Positions 8,631-63,130 of a DNA stretch of 64,000 nucleotides are shown here, piece by piece. The notes under the pieces were generated by a model. It did no database searches, had not been told where the DNA came from, and was given only the letters and a program-made list of their open reading frames with translations. Numbering within the stretch: position 1 is the first letter of the stretch; every line of letters begins with the position of its first letter. The translations under genes and the position numbers were made by a program. The stretch comes from Mucor racemosus (Eukaryota > Mucoromycota > Mucoromycetes > Mucorales > Mucoraceae), in contig JAPEHQ010000017.1 in assembly GCA_027405735.1 (NCBI GenBank), positions 875,501 through 939,500 of the forward strand. The letters run 5' to 3'.

Positions 8631-8702
8631 TGCCTCGGTGCTGGATTGAACAACAGACCTTTGGTTTACAAGACCAACGCTCTACCACTGAGCTACAGAG
8701 GC
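8631..8702 (-). tRNA. tRNA-Thr (UGU)
   Basis: Seventy-two nucleotides that fold as a tRNA. The D stem is GCTC/GAGC. The anticodon stem TTGGT/ACCAA has loop CTTGTAA and anticodon TGT. The T stem TGTTG/CAGCA has loop TTCAATC. The acceptor stem is GCCTCTG/CCGAGGC with one mismatch (T6 against C67) and discriminator A. The A-box region TAGCTCAGTGG and B-box region GTTCAATCC are present. There is no intron. It is identical over all 72 nt to the gene at 19872-19943. About 68 bp of 3' flank (8563-8630) is also shared with that copy, which indicates a duplicated locus. Confidence 0.85.
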
Positions 8703-14603: not shown

Positions 14604-14798
14604 TAAATATACATTCATTCAAGTCTGATGGTATCCAAGCTCTCTAAATCACTATAAATACCCTCATACTTTTTCAATTATTTTAAATCTTCAGAAATCT
14701 TTTGTAATAAAAACTTTAGCTGATTATAATTGTATTTCTACTACTTTTATTTTTATATCTTTTTTATTTTAGTAAATAACTTCGTCATTTACTGCAAG
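14604..14798 (+). repeat. Direct repeat, right copy (about 195 bp)
   Basis: Partner of 9814-10011, same orientation, with small indels in the T-rich part. Together the two copies flank the transposase pseudogene. Confidence 0.8.
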
Positions 14799-15027
14799 TC
14801 TTTAAGGAACGACTATTAATAAATGTAGTAGTAATAGATTTATTTTAGAAAGAAGTTAAGTTTATTATTGAAGTATATAACATGAGCTTATATACTCATA
14901 ATTAGTAATGACTAAATATCGAACAGATGTATCGAACCGAACAAGCCGGAAGGAATGTGATATATGTATAACACGTGACCTTAATATATTTACTATTACT
15001 ATCTATTATAAATAATATTTGACAACG

Positions 15028-15052
15028 GACATCTAAGCCTCTGTAGCTCAGT
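15028..15052 (+). pseudogene. tRNA-Thr 5' stub: left target-site copy of the LINE
   Basis: The last 16 nt, gcctctgtagctcagt (15037-15052), are the first 16 nt of tRNA-Thr. The preceding nine, gacatctaa, equal the 5' flank of the intact tRNA gene at 8.6 kb. The tRNA sequence stops inside the A box. The rest of the gene is found 4.8 kb away at 19872 after the LINE. This is therefore read as the left half of an interrupted tRNA gene, not a chance match. Confidence 0.8.
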
Positions 15053-15339
15053 TTAAAGATTGATTTTTTATTAATAAATTTATATTGGGCACTCGATATG
15101 AGCATAAGCCTTAAATTTAAGAAACAGTAAGGAAAGAGAAACAAAAACCCCTTTCAGAGCACTATATTAAGTAATAAGGGTAAAAAGGAATGTGTGTGAG
15201 TTGCCAAAGAACGATATGACTAATGAGTGATGTAATATTGATCTTGAGGGAAAACCATCGGATGGGAACTTTGATAACCACTTACCACCGAGGTACCGCA
15301 CAAAGAAAAGAATATACAAACTGTTCGTCAAAGTCGAGT

Positions 15340-18300
15340 CTATTTGTTGATATACCAAGAATATCCTGGATCTGGATCAGAGGCAATAACTGCCAATGGA
15401 TGCACAAGACAATCAATGGCATGTAGCAGAGCTAAAAGAGCCGACCAAAATGGAGGAGGACCAGCAGACGCTTTCTCCGGTAAGAGATTCAGAGCATGAT
15501 CAATTTTGTGAACACCAAGAGGAGCAGCAGGCAGAGTATCCAACAGGGCACCATCCAGAGCACGACAGGAGAGGAAGTGATCCCGAGAAATATAGACCCC
15601 AAAGGGCGATCTACATGGGCATTCTTCCCTCATATTTGTGTACCGACCAAGACGCCAACGAACTAGACGACTACGAGCAGAACGACCAATAGGCAAATAC
15701 AGAATAGGGTCAGGACGAGAGACAGACGGGCGACAGTTACGCAGGAGAGTTTGTGTACCATTAGTAGCAGCAGCAACTAGTTGATGGTCCACCTGGTCTT
15801 GCCAAAAGTCGTTAAAAAAATTGACTAACCCGGCAGTGCTAGGAACAGGATCAGGTAGTGATAGATACATGCTGTTTTCACAGATGTATTTATCCAATCT
15901 GGTATAGTGGAGACTATTACGGAGCAGTACCAAAAGACTATCCTCGGGTAGAGTATCAGCACGGAGAGCATATCTGGTAGCCAAGATATTGTAGCGATGT
16001 TTCATGGACGGAATGCAGGTAATGTGTTTGGCAACATTAAACCACGAACTGCCCACAAACATGCCAACGAGCCTGTTTTGTAGAGTATCAAGAGCCTTAA
16101 AATCCTGAAAAGAGAGATGGGAGATAGCTAGCCCATATTCAATTTTGGGACGAATAAAGGACTTGTAGAGGCGAGAGCAAAGCAATAGAGAAAATCCAGT
16201 ACGGTTGACACCAACTGAGTTGAGCAAGGCCATAGTTTTGACAGCACCAGAGGACCGAAGAGACAGAATACCGGGAGCATACAGACCTTTACGACGAAAG
16301 GGCATACCCAGATAAACAAACTCCTCCACAATGGGGAGAGGTTCGTCATACAGGGTTAACTGGTCACCAGATGAAGCAGCAGGGGCATTTAAGACAGCAC
16401 ACTTAGACGGTTTCCACCGATAGCCAAGAGCAACAGAGTGGTCAGAAGCCAAATCGAGCATATGTTGGACGTCAGTTTTGGACCCGAAAATAGCAACATC
16501 GTCGGCGAAAAGCAAACTATTAATAGCAATAGAATTATAGGCTCCAGGAGGAGACACCATAGTAGCACCAGTAGCAACAGACCGCAGCAGACCCGGTAAG
16601 GAGTTGATATATAACGAATACAAGTGGGGGCTAAGCACTGAACCTTGTAAGACTCCGGTAGCAGGAGAGAAAGCAGCAGAGTTGTGATTAGCAATCAGTA
16701 CCGACACAGACACACTGTCAAACATATTAATCAACAGGCTCAGAACAGGTCTAGGAAGAGAAGAACCAGCCAAGGCTTTCCAGATAACCCTACGATCCAC
16801 CGTATCATATGCCGACTTGATATCCAGGAAAGCAACAACAGGGTACCGTCTATGAGTCAGAAAATAATCATGCATCAAGTCATGCAAGCAGAGGGCTTGA
16901 TCCAGAGGACTACGTTGAGGTCTAAAACCACCTTGAGCAACATCAAGAGCAGGAGAGTGCAGATCAAGCTCTGGCATTAGAGAAAACTCAAAGAGTTTAC
17001 GCATTACCGAAGTCAGTGAAATTGGGCGGTAGTTACCAGGATCAGTAGCATCCCCTTTTTTGAATATAGGGAAGACCTGGGCTTGGCGCCAGAGATCAGG
17101 AGTGTAACCCCATTGATAGCACAAGGTAAACAGCAAAGACAGTAGAGGAGCAAGTTCAGTAACCAAGGGCTTAAGCATTTCGGCCTTTAAGTGGTCCGGA
17201 CCGGGAGCTTTATTAGTTGGAAGACGCTTAATGTGAGATACAAGAGTATCAGCATCAAAAAGTGACAGAGCCTCAGGTACCGAAAAGGGCAGATCAGAGT
17301 CAAAAGCACAAGGAGGGGGAGGCCGAGTAGCAGTTGCAAGTAGAGAACCGTCATAAACGGAAGCCAAATGAGCACCCATAACATTAACAGAAGCAGAAGG
17401 ACCATCAGGATGACTGTAAGTAGAGGAGGATTCTTTGTTACGCTTAATACGCTTGATAGCAGCAGTAGCTTTTGAGAAATCACTCTCCAGTGTTGTACAG
17501 AACTTTTTCCAATACCTTCGCTTTGCAGCTTGCACCAGTGACCGAAACCGACGATGTGCCTCTTTATAGTGAAGCCAACAACTCACTTTGTCAATCCCAA
17601 AGGAATGACGCCACTTGCTGTATAGACGATCCCGCGAACGAGCAGCATCCTCAATTTCAGGAGTCCAGAACTTCTTCCAATGGCCAGGACGACCAGTCTT
17701 GATACCAACAGAGCCATCCAGAGCTTCATACAAACATTGATTCAGAGAATCGTTGAGTGCATCAATATCTGGACGAGTTTCAGGAGGAGCAGACACCAAA
17801 CCAGAGAGAGTAACCACCAGAGGAGCAACCGAAGATCGAAAGAGGCATCGGTACAAACCCAAGGGCTTGTCCTTACCCAGTTTCGAGAGCTTCCATAACC
17901 GTCTTGGAGCCAAAGCAGAACCAGCAGACACCGCCAAATCACCAGAAGGAGGAACATACCCAAATGTAAGGACCATCAGCCGATGATCGGAACCCAAAGA
18001 GAGATCAGACTCAACCACCAGTTGAGGATTTACCAAAGCAGCTGCACCAATATTGGTAAGAAACAGATCAATAATACTACTCTGCTCTTTTTGATTCCGA
18101 AACGTCAAAAAAGTTTTTACACCATGAGCCAGAGTAGCATTAAGCACCGACAAACCAGATTCCTCAATCCAGGGAGCAAGAGCAACACCACGGGAGTTAC
18201 GAATAGCATCTCCAGTAAGAGAACCAAACCGAGCGTTGAAATCACCACATAAAATAGTATCCCTATGCAGAGGCAATGAATTAAGGACCGAGAGCACCTT

Positions 18301-18693
18301 ATCAGTAGATAAGGGTGGAGGAAAGTAAATACAATGTACCGTTAGGGCGCCAACCCTAAGGGACAAAGTGTGAGGGTTATAGGACGGAAGTTGAGAGACA
18401 GAAAAAGGACAGGAAGGAGACACAAAAGCAGAGACACCACCAGAACCACGGTTAAAAGCACCCGGTACTTTCGTACCATATAGGTGAAATTGAGACCAGT
18501 TGGTGGGAAAAGATCCAGTGGTAAGCCAGGTTTCAGTAACAAAGAGAACATGAGTACCCAAGACATGAGATAGGACATCATGAACTACAGAGGTACGGAG
18601 ACCATTGGCATTCCATAGAGAGAGAGAAATATTTACAGTATGAGAAGAATTATGTACAGAACTGGGGAATAAAGTGTCAGCCAGGGCCGACAT
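15340..18693 (-). CDS. LINE ORF2: endonuclease and reverse transcriptase
   Basis: The start is taken as the ATG at 18693 (M-S-A-L-A-D), one base after the ORF1 stop, giving 1117 residues. The frame is open upstream to 18831, but that part overlaps ORF1. The N-terminal third is an apurinic-endonuclease-like domain, with SLWNANGLRTS, FVTETWL, LCGDFNARFG and GSDHRLMVLTF. The middle is a reverse transcriptase: PIFKKGDATDPGNYRPISL, GFRPQRSPLDQAL, AFLDIKSAYDTVDRRV, GVLQGSVLSPHLYSLYIN and the catalytic LLFADDVAIFG. Near the C-terminus, C-P-C-R-S...H-F-L-S-C resembles the CCHC finger of LINE ORF2 proteins. The product would nick the target DNA and reverse-transcribe the element RNA in place. Confidence 0.9.
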   Translation of the reverse strand: MSALADTLFPSSVHNSSHTVNISLSLWNANGLRTSVVHDVLSHVLGTHVLFVTETWLTTGSFPTNWSQFHLYGTKVPGAFNRGSGGVSAFVSPSCPFSVSQLPSYNPHTLSLRVGALTVHCIYFPPPLSTDKVLSVLNSLPLHRDTILCGDFNARFGSLTGDAIRNSRGVALAPWIEESGLSVLNATLAHGVKTFLTFRNQKEQSSIIDLFLTNIGAAALVNPQLVVESDLSLGSDHRLMVLTFGYVPPSGDLAVSAGSALAPRRLWKLSKLGKDKPLGLYRCLFRSSVAPLVVTLSGLVSAPPETRPDIDALNDSLNQCLYEALDGSVGIKTGRPGHWKKFWTPEIEDAARSRDRLYSKWRHSFGIDKVSCWLHYKEAHRRFRSLVQAAKRRYWKKFCTTLESDFSKATAAIKRIKRNKESSSTYSHPDGPSASVNVMGAHLASVYDGSLLATATRPPPPCAFDSDLPFSVPEALSLFDADTLVSHIKRLPTNKAPGPDHLKAEMLKPLVTELAPLLSLLFTLCYQWGYTPDLWRQAQVFPIFKKGDATDPGNYRPISLTSVMRKLFEFSLMPELDLHSPALDVAQGGFRPQRSPLDQALCLHDLMHDYFLTHRRYPVVAFLDIKSAYDTVDRRVIWKALAGSSLPRPVLSLLINMFDSVSVSVLIANHNSAAFSPATGVLQGSVLSPHLYSLYINSLPGLLRSVATGATMVSPPGAYNSIAINSLLFADDVAIFGSKTDVQHMLDLASDHSVALGYRWKPSKCAVLNAPAASSGDQLTLYDEPLPIVEEFVYLGMPFRRKGLYAPGILSLRSSGAVKTMALLNSVGVNRTGFSLLLCSRLYKSFIRPKIEYGLAISHLSFQDFKALDTLQNRLVGMFVGSSWFNVAKHITCIPSMKHRYNILATRYALRADTLPEDSLLVLLRNSLHYTRLDKYICENSMYLSLPDPVPSTAGLVNFFNDFWQDQVDHQLVAAATNGTQTLLRNCRPSVSRPDPILYLPIGRSARSRLVRWRLGRYTNMREECPCRSPFGVYISRDHFLSCRALDGALLDTLPAAPLGVHKIDHALNLLPEKASAGPPPFWSALLALLHAIDCLVHPLAVIASDPDPGYSWYINK

Positions 18694-18694
18694 T

Positions 18695-19654
18695 TTATTC
18701 GTCCATTGCAGAGTCAGAGTTTCCAGAACCACCACCAGTAGAAGTAGCAATTCTACGCTTGGACAAGAAAGCAGCCTTTTTGGGTTCAGCTTTGGCAAGA
18801 CGTTCCATAGCATCAGCAACTGATTCAGCAAGGATTTCAGAATTTATCCAGCCGAGGCTTTCAAAATACTTACCGACCGAGCTTACATTTAAAGGACGAA
18901 GGAAGGATAGGGTTTGAGTAGCACGAATTTCAACAAATTCGTGGATAAGATCCTCACGATCAGCAGGAGACAAAGAATCATATTTAGGATCTGCAATATT
19001 GGCTGGATCAAGGGGATCAAAATCCCGGATGATATCAGCTTCCAATTTGGCCATTATATCACAAAAGATAGGAACATATTGAATATGCATTAGAATACCG
19101 ATAACACCAGAGGCGGGGAAACAGATATCTAGGATACGACCATTATCTACCCCAGCTTTGCGGAATTTCGAGCGTACCTCAGTACGGGCGATTTTCCCAG
19201 AACGGCCAATGTAAATGTACTCAAAACCTTGAGGACCCTTAGAGTCTATGGTTTTGAAGGTACGACCTAAAGCAAGAAGCCTTTTTTGAGAGTGCACAGG
19301 CTTGGAGGCAGGAGGAGTAGCATTCTTACCTTTATTGGCAGCTCCAATATAGGAAGATTGAGTAGTATCAGGTTTATTGGAAGCTTGAGTTTGAGAATCT
19401 TGAGAGCCCCCAGGTGCGCTTGAATTTCCCAGATCACGTGATTGTTGCACGTGACCTCGCAATTGTTCAATTACAAGGTCCTTATCCCTGTTCTCTTTTT
19501 TCAAAGAGTTGTTTTCTTCTTCCAAAGCATCCAGTCTACGCAGAATGTTGGAGTGTTGTTGTACTTGTTGTTGAAGACCTTGAAGTTGTTGTTGCAACTG
19601 AAGAACTAGTTGTGGTAACTGCTGCAAATCGAGCTGTTGTTGGTGGACGTCCAT
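18695..19654 (-). CDS. LINE ORF1: coiled-coil RNA-binding-type protein
   Basis: Encodes 319 residues. The first about 70 are glutamine/leucine-rich and continue into a heptad-like coiled coil (LDALEEENNSLKKENRDKD). The middle is basic and Ser/Thr-rich. The part around residues 130-200 (FKTIDSKGPQGFEYIYIGRS, ILDICFPASGVIGILMHIQY) has the alternating strand/helix look of the RRM-like fold seen in many ORF1 proteins. No CCHC knuckles are present, unlike ORF1 of the second LINE in this window. The expected role is to coat element RNA and form the ribonucleoprotein with ORF2. The stop codon TAA and the ORF2 ATG are separated by a single base. Confidence 0.75.
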   Translation of the reverse strand: MDVHQQQLDLQQLPQLVLQLQQQLQGLQQQVQQHSNILRRLDALEEENNSLKKENRDKDLVIEQLRGHVQQSRDLGNSSAPGGSQDSQTQASNKPDTTQSSYIGAANKGKNATPPASKPVHSQKRLLALGRTFKTIDSKGPQGFEYIYIGRSGKIARTEVRSKFRKAGVDNGRILDICFPASGVIGILMHIQYVPIFCDIMAKLEADIIRDFDPLDPANIADPKYDSLSPADREDLIHEFVEIRATQTLSFLRPLNVSSVGKYFESLGWINSEILAESVADAMERLAKAEPKKAAFLSKRRIATSTGGGSGNSDSAMDE

Positions 19655-19871
19655 GTTATTTGAAGATTTTTGGTGGTGAAAAACAAAAACAACAAATAAG
19701 TATCTAAGAAGTCCAAAAAATATATATGTTATAACGCGGGTTTAGACGAGTCTAACGATATATTTTTGATGTAGGTTTATAATGTAGTTGCCAAGAAAAA
19801 GTTGTTTTTATAAGAAAGTGAAAACTTTTCAATTACAATATCCTGAAAAGTTTAGAGAAACGGGAAGAGAT

Positions 19872-19943
19872 GCCTCTGTAGCTCAGTGGTAGAGCGTTGG
19901 TCTTGTAAACCAAAGGTCTGTTGTTCAATCCAGCACCGAGGCA
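19872..19943 (+). tRNA. tRNA-Thr (UGU), rebuilt at the LINE 5' junction
   Basis: Seventy-two nucleotides identical to 8631-8702, with anticodon TGT in loop CTTGTAA, intact D, anticodon and T arms, and the same T6/C67 acceptor mismatch. Its first nucleotide directly abuts the 5' end of the minus-strand LINE. The upstream sequence that now serves the gene is therefore LINE 5' UTR. The 3' flank 19944-20012 matches the flank of the 8.6 kb copy. Internal A and B boxes are intact, so Pol III transcription should still be possible. Confidence 0.85.
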
Positions 19944-20806
19944 TATTTTTTGCTATTTTACAACAAAATAGTGTTTGTAGTCCTTTTTTTTGAATATGGA
20001 AGCTAATTTTTTTAATGAAATTGAAAGGATCAAAGCAAATAGTATGATATACAATCAGATTGTAAGGTATATAACGTTTTGGTGCTTTTAGAAAAAACAA
20101 AAATTTCTTATAAATTATACAAGTAATTACAGAACTCATTTATCGAGTGCGTCAAACATTTATATTTTCGAGCAAAATTTAATATTTTTCACAAAATTCT
20201 AAGGTTATTATATATTCACATGTTCAGATATTTGTTCTGAACTTACTCTTTACTACATTTTTAGAACAGCAATAGATAATGAACCGCCAAATTATGTCTC
20301 TTAATGAAAATCGACCCTCGAATCTTTTGTGGCAACATTACATTCAAATTATTAAATTTCAAGGAGTTTTTTATATATGTAGGAATGCATTTAAGGGTAA
20401 TTTTTAGCAAATAAGCAATTTCATAACACCTGAAAATATTATATATAGTTTTTTTTTCTAATAAAAACCAAAGTGATTAGCCGCAACAATGTATATTCCA
20501 TTGGAAGGCTTTATCCTCAATACAAAAAAATAAAACCATGTATCTCAGACGTTGGAGGAACCAAAAGCAGCTTTTATTTATAGTACTAAATTGTCAGAAA
20601 GTTCTCTCAAGACAATTAAATTTCTTTTCAATAATTCAGAGATAAGCAATACAAAATATCAATTTGTTACGAGATAACCTGCTAATTTATATGTATAGCT
20701 ACTACTATTGATCATCAAGCTCATTCATCTTATTAGTTGTGTGAAACTTCCAACATTAACATGTTAAATGACGATAAAATCAAAAATCTATGCTATTTTA
20801 TTTTAT
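19944..20806. other. Intergenic region, 3' of tRNA and 3' of NAA25
   Basis: Begins with about 68 bp of tRNA 3' flank shared with the 8.6 kb locus, including T runs suitable for Pol III termination (ttttttt from about 19949). The remainder is AT-rich without coding signal and contains the 3' end region of the NAA25 gene. Confidence 0.5.
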
Positions 20807-57602: not shown

Positions 57603-59180
57603 ATGGCTTTCTCCGCTAAAGATCAGTTTTTAATGCGAGAATCTACCTCACAGGGTAGATCAACGTTGGATTCTAGCCATAATCCAAGCAACAAACCATT
57701 TACATATCAGTCTTTCACAGATGCAATCAAATTTCAAAAACGACACGCATTCAATGTTACTCCAGATGTGGATAATACGGAATGTTTTAAAACCTTAACA
57801 TCCAACTCGACTTTCATTGAAGCGAAGGAAAAAAACTCTATCGTCATTGATTGTTCTCAATTCCTTGGAATGGTGTTCAAAGATAAGACCCTCTTAGGTA
57901 TCATGAGAGAGCAATATCCCAACAGCTTAGGTATGAAACCAAGAATTATTGGAAAGAACAAGCGAAAAGTTGTCGAACTTAGCTTCTCTACTGAAAAGGA
58001 ATGCAAAGATGCGCTTTTAAAGGAATTTGTAGTGGAAGGTAAAGCTATTGAAGTTAGTAAAACCTTGACGAGTACATCTCAAGTAATTCGGGTTGGAATT
58101 ACTGAGATCCCTCTTGATGATGAGGATGCGTTGATGGAATCTCTTGTCAAGACATTTGAAAGATACGGCGATATCCTGAACATTGGATTGACGAAGGTGG
58201 AGGATCATGATTGGTTTACTGGCCGAGGCTTTGTCACTCTTAACAGGGATAAATTAAAAAATTATGCAGCTGACCTTACTCCTCAGGTACAGCTTATTGG
58301 CTATGAGGGAACAGCCCTTCACCTAGTATGGTCAAACATGAAGCCCATTTGTCCTGAGTGTCATTCGGATGATCACATCAAGTATGATTGCCCCAAGAAG
58401 CAGCGAAAACTTTGCCATCGATGCAGGAGCCCTAACCATTTACAGGCCGACTGTCCAGCTGCTCCCTGGAACAAAAAGGACCTTAGAAACAAGGAAACTT
58501 CCAAGTATCAAGATTTGAATGACAATGGTGATATAAACCAAGCTAAATCTAGTGGCATGGAAGTTAATCTATTGGATGCGTTGAAAGGAGGTAATCCTAA
58601 TGCAAAATTCACTTCTAACAATACTTTTGAAGTGTTAGCTGCCTCGGTAGAGGAACAGAATGAAGAAACCAGGAACATTGTGGAAGAAGAAAACATGGAA
58701 GATGTTGTCACTGAATCAGCTAAAGGCACTGAAGCCGAAACTAATGAAGAAAATACTGTGATTGGAACCAGGGAGGAAGATGTCGCTTCAGAATTGAATG
58801 AAGGGAACTTCGAACCTAATATCAATGAGGATGACAATGTCGGGGTGCAAATTAATCAAGAAGGGGAAAAGCAAATTCAACATGCTAAGAAGAATATTGC
58901 TTCGACTTCGAGGGCACCAAGATTGCTGAGATCAAGCCAATCTTCGGACACCGCAAATAGAGGTTTAAACTCAACTACAAGTAAGGATCAACTCAAGCCG
59001 TCTAAGATCAACACATCCAAGAGACGTCTGAATGATGCTATATCTCCTGGATCGGTTGAGCCTACCACGCCTCAGAAAAAGGGCACCAATGATAGCAAAG
59101 TAATAAAAGCAACGGAAGACATATTTGTGTCTCCAGTAGGTGCTAGCAATGAAGAAGAAATATCTGAACATTCAGATTAA
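57603..59180 (+). CDS. LINE ORF1: gag-like CCHC zinc-knuckle protein
   Basis: Encodes 525 residues. Residues about 150-245 look like an RRM-type domain (VIRVGITEIPLDDEDALMES, FERYGDILNIGLTKVEDHDW, GRGFVTLNRDKLKN). Two CCHC-type knuckles follow at about 252-290 (C-P-E-C-H-S-D-D-H-I-K-Y-D-C and C-H-R-C-R-S-P-N-H-L-Q-A-D-C). The C-terminal 200 residues are acidic and then Ser/Lys-rich without obvious fold. The ATG at 57603 lies one base after the left target duplication, so there is practically no 5' UTR if the first ATG is used. A second in-frame ATG is codon 11. It would bind element RNA. Confidence 0.85.
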   Translation: MAFSAKDQFLMRESTSQGRSTLDSSHNPSNKPFTYQSFTDAIKFQKRHAFNVTPDVDNTECFKTLTSNSTFIEAKEKNSIVIDCSQFLGMVFKDKTLLGIMREQYPNSLGMKPRIIGKNKRKVVELSFSTEKECKDALLKEFVVEGKAIEVSKTLTSTSQVIRVGITEIPLDDEDALMESLVKTFERYGDILNIGLTKVEDHDWFTGRGFVTLNRDKLKNYAADLTPQVQLIGYEGTALHLVWSNMKPICPECHSDDHIKYDCPKKQRKLCHRCRSPNHLQADCPAAPWNKKDLRNKETSKYQDLNDNGDINQAKSSGMEVNLLDALKGGNPNAKFTSNNTFEVLAASVEEQNEETRNIVEEENMEDVVTESAKGTEAETNEENTVIGTREEDVASELNEGNFEPNINEDDNVGVQINQEGEKQIQHAKKNIASTSRAPRLLRSSQSSDTANRGLNSTTSKDQLKPSKINTSKRRLNDAISPGSVEPTTPQKKGTNDSKVIKATEDIFVSPVGASNEEEISEHSD

Positions 59181-59209
59181 TTTCTGATCTATAAATATCA
59201 ACAATACTT

Positions 59210-62200
59210 ATGAATAATACCAAATATGTTAACATCAATATAGGCTCTGTCAACTGCAGAAGTCTATACAAACAATCTCAACAATCAACTACAGACGACT
59301 TTATAGCTATGTTAAAGAACAAGAAATTAAATATCCTACTATGTCAGGAAACCAACATACCAAATCACTCGTTTGAAGAAATAATCAACAATATGGAAAT
59401 CAAATTTAAATATCACCAAGCAATATGGACTGAACACTGTTCCATCATTAATTTTAACAATGCAATTAACCTTGAGAAAATCAAGATATCTACAGATGGA
59501 AGAATGATTTTATCCAAACTTACCTTTGTAGACAATCCTACGACACCATTTTACATCATGAACATTTATGCACACTCTGGACATGTTCAAAGACAAGAGA
59601 GGAATAATCTTTTTAAAGATATAGTTAACATACTTTTATCTATTCCAGAGATTCTTCCACATTTGATTATGGCAGGGGACTTTAATTACAGTTTTGATAG
59701 TGGTAGCAGACATGGATCCAGAATACGTAAAAGCAAGGAGTTAGTCCAATTTATGGCGGGATATATGAAAGACTGTATGAACCAAGAAGGAGAAGGATAT
59801 GGGCCTACATGTAGACAGAATAGACAAGGACGTATCTCTCTCTCGACTATAGATTACATGTTTGCCGGGAAGGAGCTCTTTCAAAGGATGAATGGTGGAG
59901 ATGTAGAATTTTTCGGTCAGGAATTTACCGATCATGCACTACTTACCAAGACCTTAACTATAGAAATGTATAACTGTGGAAAAGGTATATGGAGAGCCAA
60001 TCCTTACCTATGTAAGAACAAAAGATATGTTAGCATTTTGAATAGAGAAATAGAAAACTACGTTCAAAACAAGCTAAATCCTGAACTGTCAACTCAAGAC
60101 CAATGGGATTGTCTTAAGAATATGGTCAAAAAAGTTACAACTAATTTCTGTCGCACTACCAACCAAATCAGAGAGACAACACTGAAGAAACTAAACAGTG
60201 AGAGGAACCGTATCTTGAGGTTATACCGTGATAATAAAGAATGTCTGAATATACTACTGCCTGATATTGAAACACAAATTTCAAAATTACAAAAGGAAAA
60301 GACAGACATTGCAAGGTTGAGATCAGGAAAGTATTGGATGGAGAACAACGAAAACTCGCCGTCATATATCAAAAGAACCATTGACCAGCGAAGAGAAGCT
60401 CGTACCCTCAATATGATCAAACACCCGGATACTAGAACTGATTGCAATGATAGGGATTCTAAGATTGGAGCAGCAGAATCTTTTTACTCTAAGTTGTACA
60501 CTGAAGAAAGAATAGATATTAACTGTTTAGATGCAATACTGAACCACATTAACAAATCCATCTCTAAAGAGGAAACTGAGGAAATTACACAAGACATATC
60601 TTTTGAAGAGATCAAACAAGGTGCAAAACGAAGTCCACGTAAAAGTAGCCCTGGTTTGGATGGATTGCCATATGAAATTCTCAATATTGTAATGATTCAC
60701 CCAAGATGTAAAGAAATTGTCGAAAAGGTGTACAATGATGCATTGAAATATGGAATTATTCCTAAATCTTGGCAACAAGCATGTATTATCCTACTACCAA
60801 AGAAAGGCGATTTGTCAGATTTGTCAAACTGGAGGCCGATTTCTCTAATCAATACCGACTGCAAAGTGTTTACTAGGATTCTGAACTCCAGACTCATGGG
60901 AATAGCTTCACAGCTGATTAATAACTTCCAAACAGGATTCATGCCACAAAGATTTATTGGAGATCAAGGGTTTTCATTAAACCTCATGATTGAAAACTCA
61001 AAAGTATGCAAAGGTTTGAATAAATCCGAGTTCACTGAATATGTTGGTATAATGCTAGACAACCATAAAGCCTATGATAGAGTTCATCCATACTATCTGA
61101 CCAAGGTCCTAGAAAAATTTGGTATCCCTGAGTCCATCATTCAATGCATCCAAAATCTGTTCTTCAACAATGAAATATTCGTCAATGTCAATGGTTTTCT
61201 AACAAATCCAATTAAACAAAAACGAGGCCTAAGACAAGGTGATGCTATTTCACCTCTTCTTTTTAATTTTGCGATAGAGCCATTTCTACTCTCTATCCTT
61301 AATAATGAAGCTGTAACTGGGTACACTATGCAATCAACTAAACCAAGCAGTCAAAATTCTATGAACATGGTTTCTCCAAAACCAATTAAGCTACTAGCCT
61401 ATGCTGATGATATACTAATTTTTGCAAAAAACAAAGCTGAATATTTGGCAATTGAAGATTGCTTGAAAGGATATAGCAAGGCGTCAAATTCTAAAATCAA
61501 CTTAGATAAGTCGGTCGCGTTTCCCCTCCATGGCAGTAAGATGGTGGGTCATAAAGGTGCAGAATTACGGAACTATATCACAAACAATCAACGGATGAAA
61601 TGGTTTGATAATTCAAGTACAGGCTATCTTAAATATCTAGGCTACCCTCTCTGGTTCAACAATCAACAAAGAGATACCTTTGTGGACAACATTAGTGGAA
61701 AAATTCAAGCAACTGTCAACTTTTATAAAGAAAGAAAGATATCAGTATATGGTCGAGCAACTGTGGCCAACACAATGATACTATCAAAACTGTGGCATGT
61801 CCTAAGACTAACCAACCTACCAAAGGTGGTTACTTCAAGATTGAATTCCATTATCTATCAATATATTGTTGATGACAGACGAATCCAAGTGAAGAAGGAT
61901 GTCTTCTATCTGCCAAAAAACGAAGGGGGATTAGGCCTGCTAAACATATCAGTGCAACAGAAGATGCTACAACTTAGATACATCAATGCGTTACTTAGTG
62001 TGAGTGGAACTCCAAATCCAGTACCTAGCCATTTATATAGCTTGATGGTATTTGCCCTTCAAAATGGATGTGATACACCTCACCATGAAGTGCCTCTTCT
62101 GTTTCCTGAATCTCGTTACAAAAGTTCATTTACTGGTTTACACTCCTTTCACAACATCTTCGAAGCTATAGACTCTTGTATAGAACAATGCAAACCGGAT

Positions 62201-63130
62201 GCTGAAAAAATAAAAATATCACCTAAAATACTTCTCTCGCTGCCGTTCACCACCATATGCAACAAGGAACAACTCAATAATGAATTAATAAATATAAATA
62301 CTGCCACAATCAAACAAAGCAAGGTACAAGACTTCTTTCAATACACTCCTTTGACAAAATCCATAATCTACAAACCAAGACAAGAATGCAAAAAACCTAA
62401 AGTGTTATCAAAAATCATTCGACTTGAAAGAGAACAACACATTAAATACAATCATTTTTTCCAACAATACATGGAAAACAATTCCATAGAAAATTTTTTT
62501 GAAGAATCAAATGATTTATCAGAATACTCTAAACTAATACAAGATGTCAACAAGAAGCCATTGCTGGATCAGAAGAAAAAACGTATAAGATACATCCTAA
62601 ATCAAGGCATTCCTTTAATAATACCAAAAGGTTACAACAATAATATATCCAAAAAACAATGGACAGAATTTTACAAGACAAATATGCATCACACAGCAAG
62701 AAACCTTTGGTTTAAAGTTATCCATGACAGAATACCATCCAAGTCCTTTCTTTACAACATGCAAATGAAAGATATTGATTCAGACAAATGCCACCTATGC
62801 AATCTTAGAGAAGACAGTATGCATCTGTTGATCTCGTGTGTACACAAAAAAGATATATGGCAGGAAATTTTCAACAAGTTTCTTGGGTACCCAAGAGTGG
62901 TAAATCCTCAACAGACTTATCATGACTTCAAAAATTTAAAACTGTCCAGATACTATATATACAATTTAGACATACACATCAACATATACGACATTTTCTC
63001 AACGATAACACGCCTTATATGGTTTCATCACTTCAATCATGTGCTCAACTCAGTGCCATTTAACAGCACAATAGTCTCAAAGAAAATATGCTCAGAGCTA
63101 TATAGAATGTCTAATATGAATGACTTGTAG
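59210..63130 (+). CDS. LINE ORF2: APE endonuclease and reverse transcriptase
   Basis: 1306 residues. The endonuclease domain spans about residues 1-255: NINIGSVNCRSLYKQSQQ, LLCQETNIP, HLIMAGDFNYSFDSGSRHGS, LSTIDYMFAG, FTDHALLTKTL. The reverse transcriptase spans about residues 470-800: CIILLPKKGDLSDLSNWRPI, SLINTDCKVFTRILNSRL, GFMPQRFIGDQGFSLNLMIE, KRGLRQGDAISPLLFNFAIE and the catalytic LLAYADDILIFAKNK. A C-terminal finger C-H-L-C-N-L...M-H-L-L-I-S-C lies near residue 1200. The motif wording (F.YADD, RGLRQGDAISPLLF) is that of L1/Tx1-clade enzymes. It differs clearly from ORF2 of the 15-19 kb LINE (FADDVAIF, GVLQGSVLSPHLY), so two distinct LINE lineages are present. Confidence 0.93.
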   Translation: MNNTKYVNINIGSVNCRSLYKQSQQSTTDDFIAMLKNKKLNILLCQETNIPNHSFEEIINNMEIKFKYHQAIWTEHCSIINFNNAINLEKIKISTDGRMILSKLTFVDNPTTPFYIMNIYAHSGHVQRQERNNLFKDIVNILLSIPEILPHLIMAGDFNYSFDSGSRHGSRIRKSKELVQFMAGYMKDCMNQEGEGYGPTCRQNRQGRISLSTIDYMFAGKELFQRMNGGDVEFFGQEFTDHALLTKTLTIEMYNCGKGIWRANPYLCKNKRYVSILNREIENYVQNKLNPELSTQDQWDCLKNMVKKVTTNFCRTTNQIRETTLKKLNSERNRILRLYRDNKECLNILLPDIETQISKLQKEKTDIARLRSGKYWMENNENSPSYIKRTIDQRREARTLNMIKHPDTRTDCNDRDSKIGAAESFYSKLYTEERIDINCLDAILNHINKSISKEETEEITQDISFEEIKQGAKRSPRKSSPGLDGLPYEILNIVMIHPRCKEIVEKVYNDALKYGIIPKSWQQACIILLPKKGDLSDLSNWRPISLINTDCKVFTRILNSRLMGIASQLINNFQTGFMPQRFIGDQGFSLNLMIENSKVCKGLNKSEFTEYVGIMLDNHKAYDRVHPYYLTKVLEKFGIPESIIQCIQNLFFNNEIFVNVNGFLTNPIKQKRGLRQGDAISPLLFNFAIEPFLLSILNNEAVTGYTMQSTKPSSQNSMNMVSPKPIKLLAYADDILIFAKNKAEYLAIEDCLKGYSKASNSKINLDKSVAFPLHGSKMVGHKGAELRNYITNNQRMKWFDNSSTGYLKYLGYPLWFNNQQRDTFVDNISGKIQATVNFYKERKISVYGRATVANTMILSKLWHVLRLTNLPKVVTSRLNSIIYQYIVDDRRIQVKKDVFYLPKNEGGLGLLNISVQQKMLQLRYINALLSVSGTPNPVPSHLYSLMVFALQNGCDTPHHEVPLLFPESRYKSSFTGLHSFHNIFEAIDSCIEQCKPDAEKIKISPKILLSLPFTTICNKEQLNNELININTATIKQSKVQDFFQYTPLTKSIIYKPRQECKKPKVLSKIIRLEREQHIKYNHFFQQYMENNSIENFFEESNDLSEYSKLIQDVNKKPLLDQKKKRIRYILNQGIPLIIPKGYNNNISKKQWTEFYKTNMHHTARNLWFKVIHDRIPSKSFLYNMQMKDIDSDKCHLCNLREDSMHLLISCVHKKDIWQEIFNKFLGYPRVVNPQQTYHDFKNLKLSRYYIYNLDIHINIYDIFSTITRLIWFHHFNHVLNSVPFNSTIVSKKICSELYRMSNMNDL

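Follow-up and report, generated by a model that had tools for sequence, protein, structure and literature searches.

A LINE inserted in a tRNA-Thr gene of Mucor racemosus very probably belongs to a family that targets the A box of tRNA genes and rebuilds them by a 14-bp duplication

We analysed a 64-kb stretch of the Mucor racemosus genome (the window, G000:C17:875501-939500) in which a LINE on the minus strand is flanked by a partial copy of a tRNA-Thr(UGU) gene on one side and a complete one on the other. A host permease encoded in the window has its nearest full-length named match, at 95%, in Mucor circinelloides, which marks the host as Mucor-like. The features of the locus are as follows.

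8631..8702, minus strand: tRNA-Thr(UGU) paralogue, unoccupied (ARAGORN)
14797..15025, no strand assigned: LTR-like repeat just upstream of the stub, on the native 5' side of the tRNA
15037..15050, plus strand: left copy of the target-site duplication (TSD), a dead stub of nt 1-14 of tRNA-Thr(UGU)
15051..19871, minus strand: full-length LINE of family A, 4,821 bp, antisense to the tRNA
15051..15339, minus strand: 3' UTR
15340..18693, minus strand: ORF2, 1117 aa, AP-type endonuclease and reverse transcriptase (RT)
18695..19654, minus strand: ORF1, 319 aa, predicted long coiled coil and predicted RRM-like domain
19655..19871, minus strand: 5' UTR, directly abutting tRNA position +1
19872..19943, plus strand: rebuilt intact tRNA-Thr(UGU), with the right TSD copy as its nt 1-14 (19872-19885)

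The 16-mer GCCTCTGTAGCTCAGT was found on the plus strand at 15037-15052 and 19872-19887 and on the minus strand in the tRNA-Thr gene at 8687-8702, against a chance expectation of 0.13 matches with up to three mismatches allowed, and ARAGORN called tRNA-Thr(TGT) at 19871-19944 (plus) and 8631-8702 (minus). Among 20 of 26 direct-repeat families, the tRNA head was the sole repeat spanning both element ends. A sequence-only reading of this locus had proposed a LINE inserted in a tRNA-Thr gene and antisense to it; this was confirmed by both copies of the 16-mer, the ARAGORN tRNA and the LINE ORFs and domains, with ORF1 (19654-18695) and ORF2 (18693-15340) on the minus strand. Its statement that the right copy continues into a complete tRNA with a normal 3' flank also held, the tRNA being called by ARAGORN and the flank resembling that of the paralogue over 68 nt by eye. 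The match that it saw between the left flank, gacatctaa, and the 5' flank of the paralogue stands for those 9 nt only; further left lies the LTR-like repeat, which is also present at tRNA loci on contigs C22 and C2.

The stop codon of ORF1 and the start codon of ORF2 (18693) are 1 nt apart (TAAAATG). ORF2 matched the Pfam domains PF14529, PF03372 and PF00078, and in profile searches its residues 13-769 aligned with LINE-1 ORF2p, with a further match to the TRAS1 endonuclease. Its endonuclease is N-terminal and AP-type with the RT downstream, and the element is therefore an AP-endonuclease LINE; the 14-bp TSDs, the 5'-truncated copies and the absence of LTRs from the element identify it likewise as a LINE. 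The R1 and Tx1 clades comprise site-specific LINEs with this type of endonuclease. What we take to be the endonuclease and RT catalytic motifs of ORF2 were conserved across 19 aligned sequences. Pfam searches found neither an RNase H domain nor a transposase in ORF2 and gave no match of any kind for ORF1, and no poly(A) tail is present at the 3' junction of the window LINE.

The element 3' end together with the stub (window 15037-15437) was used to query the genome (53.2 Mb in 54 contigs), yielding 29 matches: seven of family A, 21 of a second family, B, and one eroded copy. Family B was 71-84% identical to the query (mostly 77%; 81% in protein). Six tRNA-sited A copies were 98.7-99.9% identical to one another over 1.8 kb and 14 B copies were 99.8-99.9% identical to one B copy over the same length, and ORF2 was stop-free in the 22 A and B copies that matched over at least 1,100 residues. 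Junctions were read at 20 loci in a main batch and separately at the others, with positions fixed by exact 14-mer searches. In 27 of the 29 matches, spread over 12 loci, the element 3' end directly follows nt 14 of a tRNA head; what is read as one array accounts for 14 of the 27, and the junctions of these units are thus not independent. No tRNA was present at the 3' end of the other two, the C5:1106464 copy of family A (5'-truncated, 92% identical in the 3'-end search and 87% over 1.8 kb, no target-site duplication found) and the eroded C10:158922 copy (71-76% identity). A third eroded copy, at C3:2605-2608 kb, had no readable junction in the stretch examined.

This recurrence bears out the preference of an APE-type LINE for a site within a tRNA gene that had been suggested from the window, an interpretation that we regard as supported: independent insertions at one tRNA position were found at 12 loci in six isoacceptors, with two further lineages, C and D, in tRNA-Val. 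The only copies at unrelated sequences were the two diverged remnants on C5 and C10, and exact matches to GCCTCTGTAGCTCA were confined to the three tRNA-Thr(UGU) loci, with no stub away from a tRNA gene. One part of the suggestion needed revision, as the target is not tRNA-Thr as such; it is an A-box nick site common to several tRNAs.

The junctions were tabulated as 21 pairs; D, a further C stub at C2:27235 and the majority of the inner array units are not among them. The retained tRNA prefix measured exactly 14 nt in 15 of these pairs and 15-17 nt in six, in which the first bases of the element match the tRNA by chance so that the end cannot be told, and it was never shorter than 14 nt. In tRNA-Ala, -Lys and -Val, nt 15-16 differ and only 14 nt are common to both copies; the TSD is therefore 14 bp (nt 1-14), and of the earlier claim of a duplication of nt 1-16 the presence of both copies stands and the length does not. 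The element bases that follow the stub are GT in family A, GG in B and AA in C, constant within each family and hence element sequence. It follows that the window element runs from its 3' end at 15051 (GT first, in the tRNA sense) to its 5' end at 19871, and that its GT agrees with tRNA-Thr by coincidence.

At the element 5' end all 21 pairs have a complete tRNA head from nucleotide 1, which belongs to an intact tRNA in 17 and to the stub of a next element in four. Irregularities at the 5' junction were limited to an extra G in one pair and a 6-nt filler (GCTCGC) in another, and the C8 copy of family A stops 10 nt short at its 5' end. Four 5'-truncated copies (C22 Ile, C7 Lys, C10 Val and C2 Val) still have a rebuilt tRNA, as expected of target-primed reverse transcription. 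The conserved tRNA-Ala upstream element ACTTTAACATGTGAAAA, or a sequence close to it, precedes the gene at all five empty tRNA-Ala loci and precedes the stub at five of six occupied ones, the array locus differing; the outer flanks are thus the native flanks of the gene, and insertion parts the rebuilt tRNA from its native upstream sequence.

Two pairs of empty and filled loci confirm this geometry. The empty site at C10:2100798 is identical to the occupied locus at C10:2110-2115 kb over the left 60 nt, and the right flank matches as well. On C2, when the two flanks of a C insertion are fused at a single 14-mer, the product is the tRNA-Val locus C2:33100-33173, with no differences over more than 200 nt around the site, the left flank being partly LTR-like repeat. 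That locus is without C at this point and has D farther out, behind an LTR-like repeat, for which reason it was counted as D-occupied.

Grouping of the 14-mer matches by place gave 65 loci for seven isoacceptors, of which 17 are occupied by elements from five lineages: Ala 6/11 (the C16 end, C8 start, C35 and C37 counted once), Val 4/11, Thr-AGU 2/9, Ile 2/11, Thr-UGU 1/3, Lys 1/12 and Phe 1/8. This is not a genome-wide rate, since the seven isoacceptors were picked for having at least one insertion each. ARAGORN called a tRNA at all 17 occupied loci. The 48 unoccupied loci comprise 14 that were read and have a called tRNA, 17 Lys or Phe loci that are Rfam tRNA matches and 17 identified by the 14-mer alone; the Rfam tRNA search scored 63 of 3,128 candidates. 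Control searches run alongside the 14-mer searches returned 0, 0, 8 and 3 matches. Fifteen other 14-mers were set aside from one listing of 44 matches; the set-aside GCCTCGTTAGCTCA occurs at four single places, and at least three of these are Rfam tRNA matches that lack a second copy.

Family A occupies Thr-UGU, Lys-CUU, Ile-AAU (two loci), Ala-AGC and Phe-GAA genes, and family B occupies Ala-AGC, Thr-AGU and Lys-CUU. Protein searches added C (about 47% identity), which has the same geometry at tRNA-Val(AAC) with the head GGTTTCTTGGTGTA, and D (30-47%, in pieces), whose 3' end adjoins a tRNA-Val stub and whose other end is separated from the tRNA by an LTR-like repeat. A fifth lineage, E, measures 2,018 bp and contains an ORF1-like frame; it is flanked by a Thr-AGU stub and an intact Thr-AGU tRNA, and no ORF2 match was found in it. 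A, B and E were seen only in tRNAs with GCTCA at nt 10-14, and C and D only in tRNA-Val, which has GTGTA.

Family B also forms arrays, on C37 (four units, then the tRNA), on C35, at the start of C8 and at the end of C16, with a 14-nt stub at each join; some array copies have a disrupted frame or are truncated where the contig stops. These arrays could stem from a single insertion multiplied by unequal crossing-over or replication slippage, and not from serial insertion into the rebuilt tRNA, which we consider quite possible but somewhat the less probable course. The stub-to-stub spacings of 4,802-4,807 bp fit such an origin, as do the 99.8-99.9% identity of those array copies that were compared to one B copy elsewhere and a single C35 interval of 6,720 bp that holds an extra, stubless piece of ORF2. 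However, there are three mixed stacks in which a 14-nt stub links members of different families (at Lys and at Ala, A followed by B; at Thr-AGU, B followed by E), and crossing-over between copies of one element cannot make these. By exact 14-mer search, the B copy in the Thr-AGU stack is without a 3' stub. Since a new insertion enters the rebuilt tRNA, serial insertion predicts that the newest element adjoins the tRNA. In the Ala stack the outer A has diverged furthest among the six tRNA-sited A copies (98.7-98.9%) and the inner B is 99.9% identical to its relatives in family B, a pattern that agrees with this order in a single case.

Taken together, these findings make it very likely that the window LINE is a copy of a tRNA-targeting, site-specific AP-endonuclease family whose nick falls after A14 and whose 14-bp TSD rebuilds the tRNA. 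Target-primed reverse transcription is established for LINEs, and A14 of the A box is, to our knowledge, a universally conserved base. Because the element 3' end abuts nt 14 of the sense strand, the first nick under this mechanism would fall right after A14, made by the element endonuclease in the tRNA sense strand, and the freed 3' end (...GCTCA, or ...GTGTA in tRNA-Val) would prime reverse transcription of the element RNA. The other strand would then be cut 14 bp upstream, exactly opposite tRNA +1, and gap filling would double nt 1-14, leaving an intact and presumably transcribed tRNA at the element 5' side and a 14-nt dead stub at the 3' side. A duplication of 14 bp is the shortest that restores the gene from an A14 nick. 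A restored target can be hit again, and it would thus be open to head-to-tail stacking with the newest element adjoining the tRNA.

In a second alternative, TFIIIC and TFIIIB on active tRNA genes bring in the insertion complex, little sequence is read by the endonuclease and the position reflects a ruler distance within the protein complex. A and B do insert at the same nucleotide in six isoacceptors with different acceptor stems, the nick would lie within the A box, and TRE5-A of Dictyostelium needs the B box and is thought, in the available portions of the report, to act via Pol III complexes (PMC5391098). The division of targets between GCTCA tRNAs (A, B and E) and GTGTA tRNAs (C and D) fits local sequence reading instead, in small numbers and with 63 of 3,128 candidates scored in the tRNA census. 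It favours some sequence reading, which might be done by the endonuclease or by pairing between RNA and target, and recruitment of this kind is possible but in our estimate rather doubtful. Very improbable is a loose insertion near tRNA genes from which selection kept only tRNA-rebuilding events: each of the 17 occupied loci has an intact tRNA at its end and a shorter duplication at an A14 nick would break the tRNA, but selection would tolerate other nick positions and any duplication of at least 14 bp, whereas the pairs show exactly 14 bp in 15/21 and 14-17 bp, with the end indeterminable, in the other six.

Among the 120 best of 146 ORF2 matches, named relatives with 37-79% identity came from Mucor, Rhizopus, Umbelopsis, Cokeromyces, Dichotomocladium, Circinella and Phycomyces, and environmental relatives reached 92%; ORF1 relatives were additionally found in Parasitella and Backusella. 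Two of these 120 ORF2 matches, from Mucor saturninus, have consecutive locus tags and a contig size of 16 kb for both, a hint of stacking there too. Beyond the A14-targeting family itself, we tentatively suggest, at close to an even chance, that Mucoralean fungi carry an old and diversified AP-type LINE clade with nicks spaced to the tRNA head and a self-renewing target. tRNA genes may thereby serve as landing pads on which various LINE families and ORF1-only derivatives accumulate in stacks, with the tRNA upstream region replaced each time, and the element and tRNA, sharing a start region, may share regulation.

For the most part, known site-specific retroelements disrupt their target or insert next to it. 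A duplication that exactly restores the target should cause little host damage and leave the site available for further insertions. The AP-type endonuclease of the family is open to testing, its specificity being short and precise, and its target, the tRNA gene, is present in all eukaryotes; the family is also a possible natural reporter of A-box accessibility, and its 14-nt stubs are scars usable to order past insertions.

We found no report of tRNA-targeted LINEs in Mucorales, nor of an AP-type LINE that nicks at A14 and rebuilds the tRNA by its duplication, in the openly accessible literature consulted. As far as the available portions of the sources describe them, Ty3 and DGLT-A are LTR retrotransposons that insert about 15 bp upstream of tRNAs (PMC5006619) and Ty3-like LTR elements lie near tRNA genes in the Rhizopus oryzae genome (PMC2699053); Ty3 and DGLT-A share with the Mucor LINE the use of tRNA genes as safe targets and differ from it as LTR elements with upstream sites. 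Dada DNA transposons do have their sites within tRNA genes, those of several lineages lying in the A box, but the duplication described for these covers nt 8-13 (PMC8869645), which cannot rebuild a whole gene; membership was ruled out by the RT and AP endonuclease and the absence of a transposase by Pfam. The dictyostelid LINEs TRE5, TRE3, NLTR-A and NLTR-B are tied to many tRNA types and, in what is available of their descriptions, lie about 50 bp upstream, 100 bp downstream or, for NLTR-A, 2-6 bp upstream (PMC5006619, PMC5391098), with no tRNA-rebuilding duplication of nt 1-14 described there. The TREs share the AP-type endonuclease; unlike the Mucor LINE, these elements lie outside the tRNA gene, the TREs end in poly(A) and NLTR-A/B carry RNase H. 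Membership in TRE5 was ruled out by insertion at nt 14/+1 inside the gene and by the junction without poly(A). Closest in being non-LTR retrotransposons specific for tRNA genes are NeSL-1_TV (tRNA-Pro), LIN15_SM (tRNA-Arg) and LIN25_SM (tRNA-Glu), placed near the NeSL clade in the accessible part of the source (PMC4640811). That clade has a restriction-like endonuclease and, going by that part, one tRNA per family name, whereas the Mucor LINE has an N-terminal, AP-type endonuclease, which rules out membership, and its family A occupies five isoacceptors. Published examples thus include LINEs specific for tRNA genes (near NeSL), LINEs beside tRNA genes (in dictyostelids) and Dada elements in the A box, and the Mucor family is in that sense known in kind.

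In the main LINE, the ORF1 stop codon and the ORF2 start codon are separated by a single base (TAAAATG, window 18691-18697, minus strand), a spacing that suggests translation of ORF2 by a stop-restart mechanism. Also recorded were:

Window 57603-63130, plus strand: second LINE, of another lineage than the main element, with ORF1 and ORF2.
C22:660259-662276 (L071/L081): element E, 2,018 bp, within a tRNA-Thr(AGU) gene.
Window 14797-15025: LTR-like repeat, close upstream of tRNA +1; also at loci L004 and L057 (two places).

The second LINE shares 29% identity with the main element over 268 compared RT residues. Its ORF2 encodes AP endonuclease, RT and zf-RVT domains, CCHC-like motifs were seen by eye in its ORF1, and ARAGORN called no adjoining tRNA in the window. 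Element E resembles an ORF1-only half-LINE, its only frame being a single ORF1-like one; a search with its own 3′ end found no second copy.

On C3, the tRNA-Ala locus at 2614 kb is occupied, and some 5 kb outside it lies an eroded A-like copy in identical orientation (L052, C3:2605-2608 kb), possibly an earlier layer of that landing pad. The tRNA-Ala(AGC) genes have a conserved 5′ flank in common, ACTTTAACATGTGAAAA (loci L076-L080 and the left flanks of occupied Ala loci). This flank, which insertion displaces, may be a Pol III element upstream of the gene. Separately, inverted pairs of tRNA-Val genes spaced approximately 1-1.5 kb apart were observed on C2 and C4 (L057, L085).

Several tRNA loci carry the LTR-like repeat a short way upstream of +1, and it may be an LTR element that targets Pol III, like those in Rhizopus.
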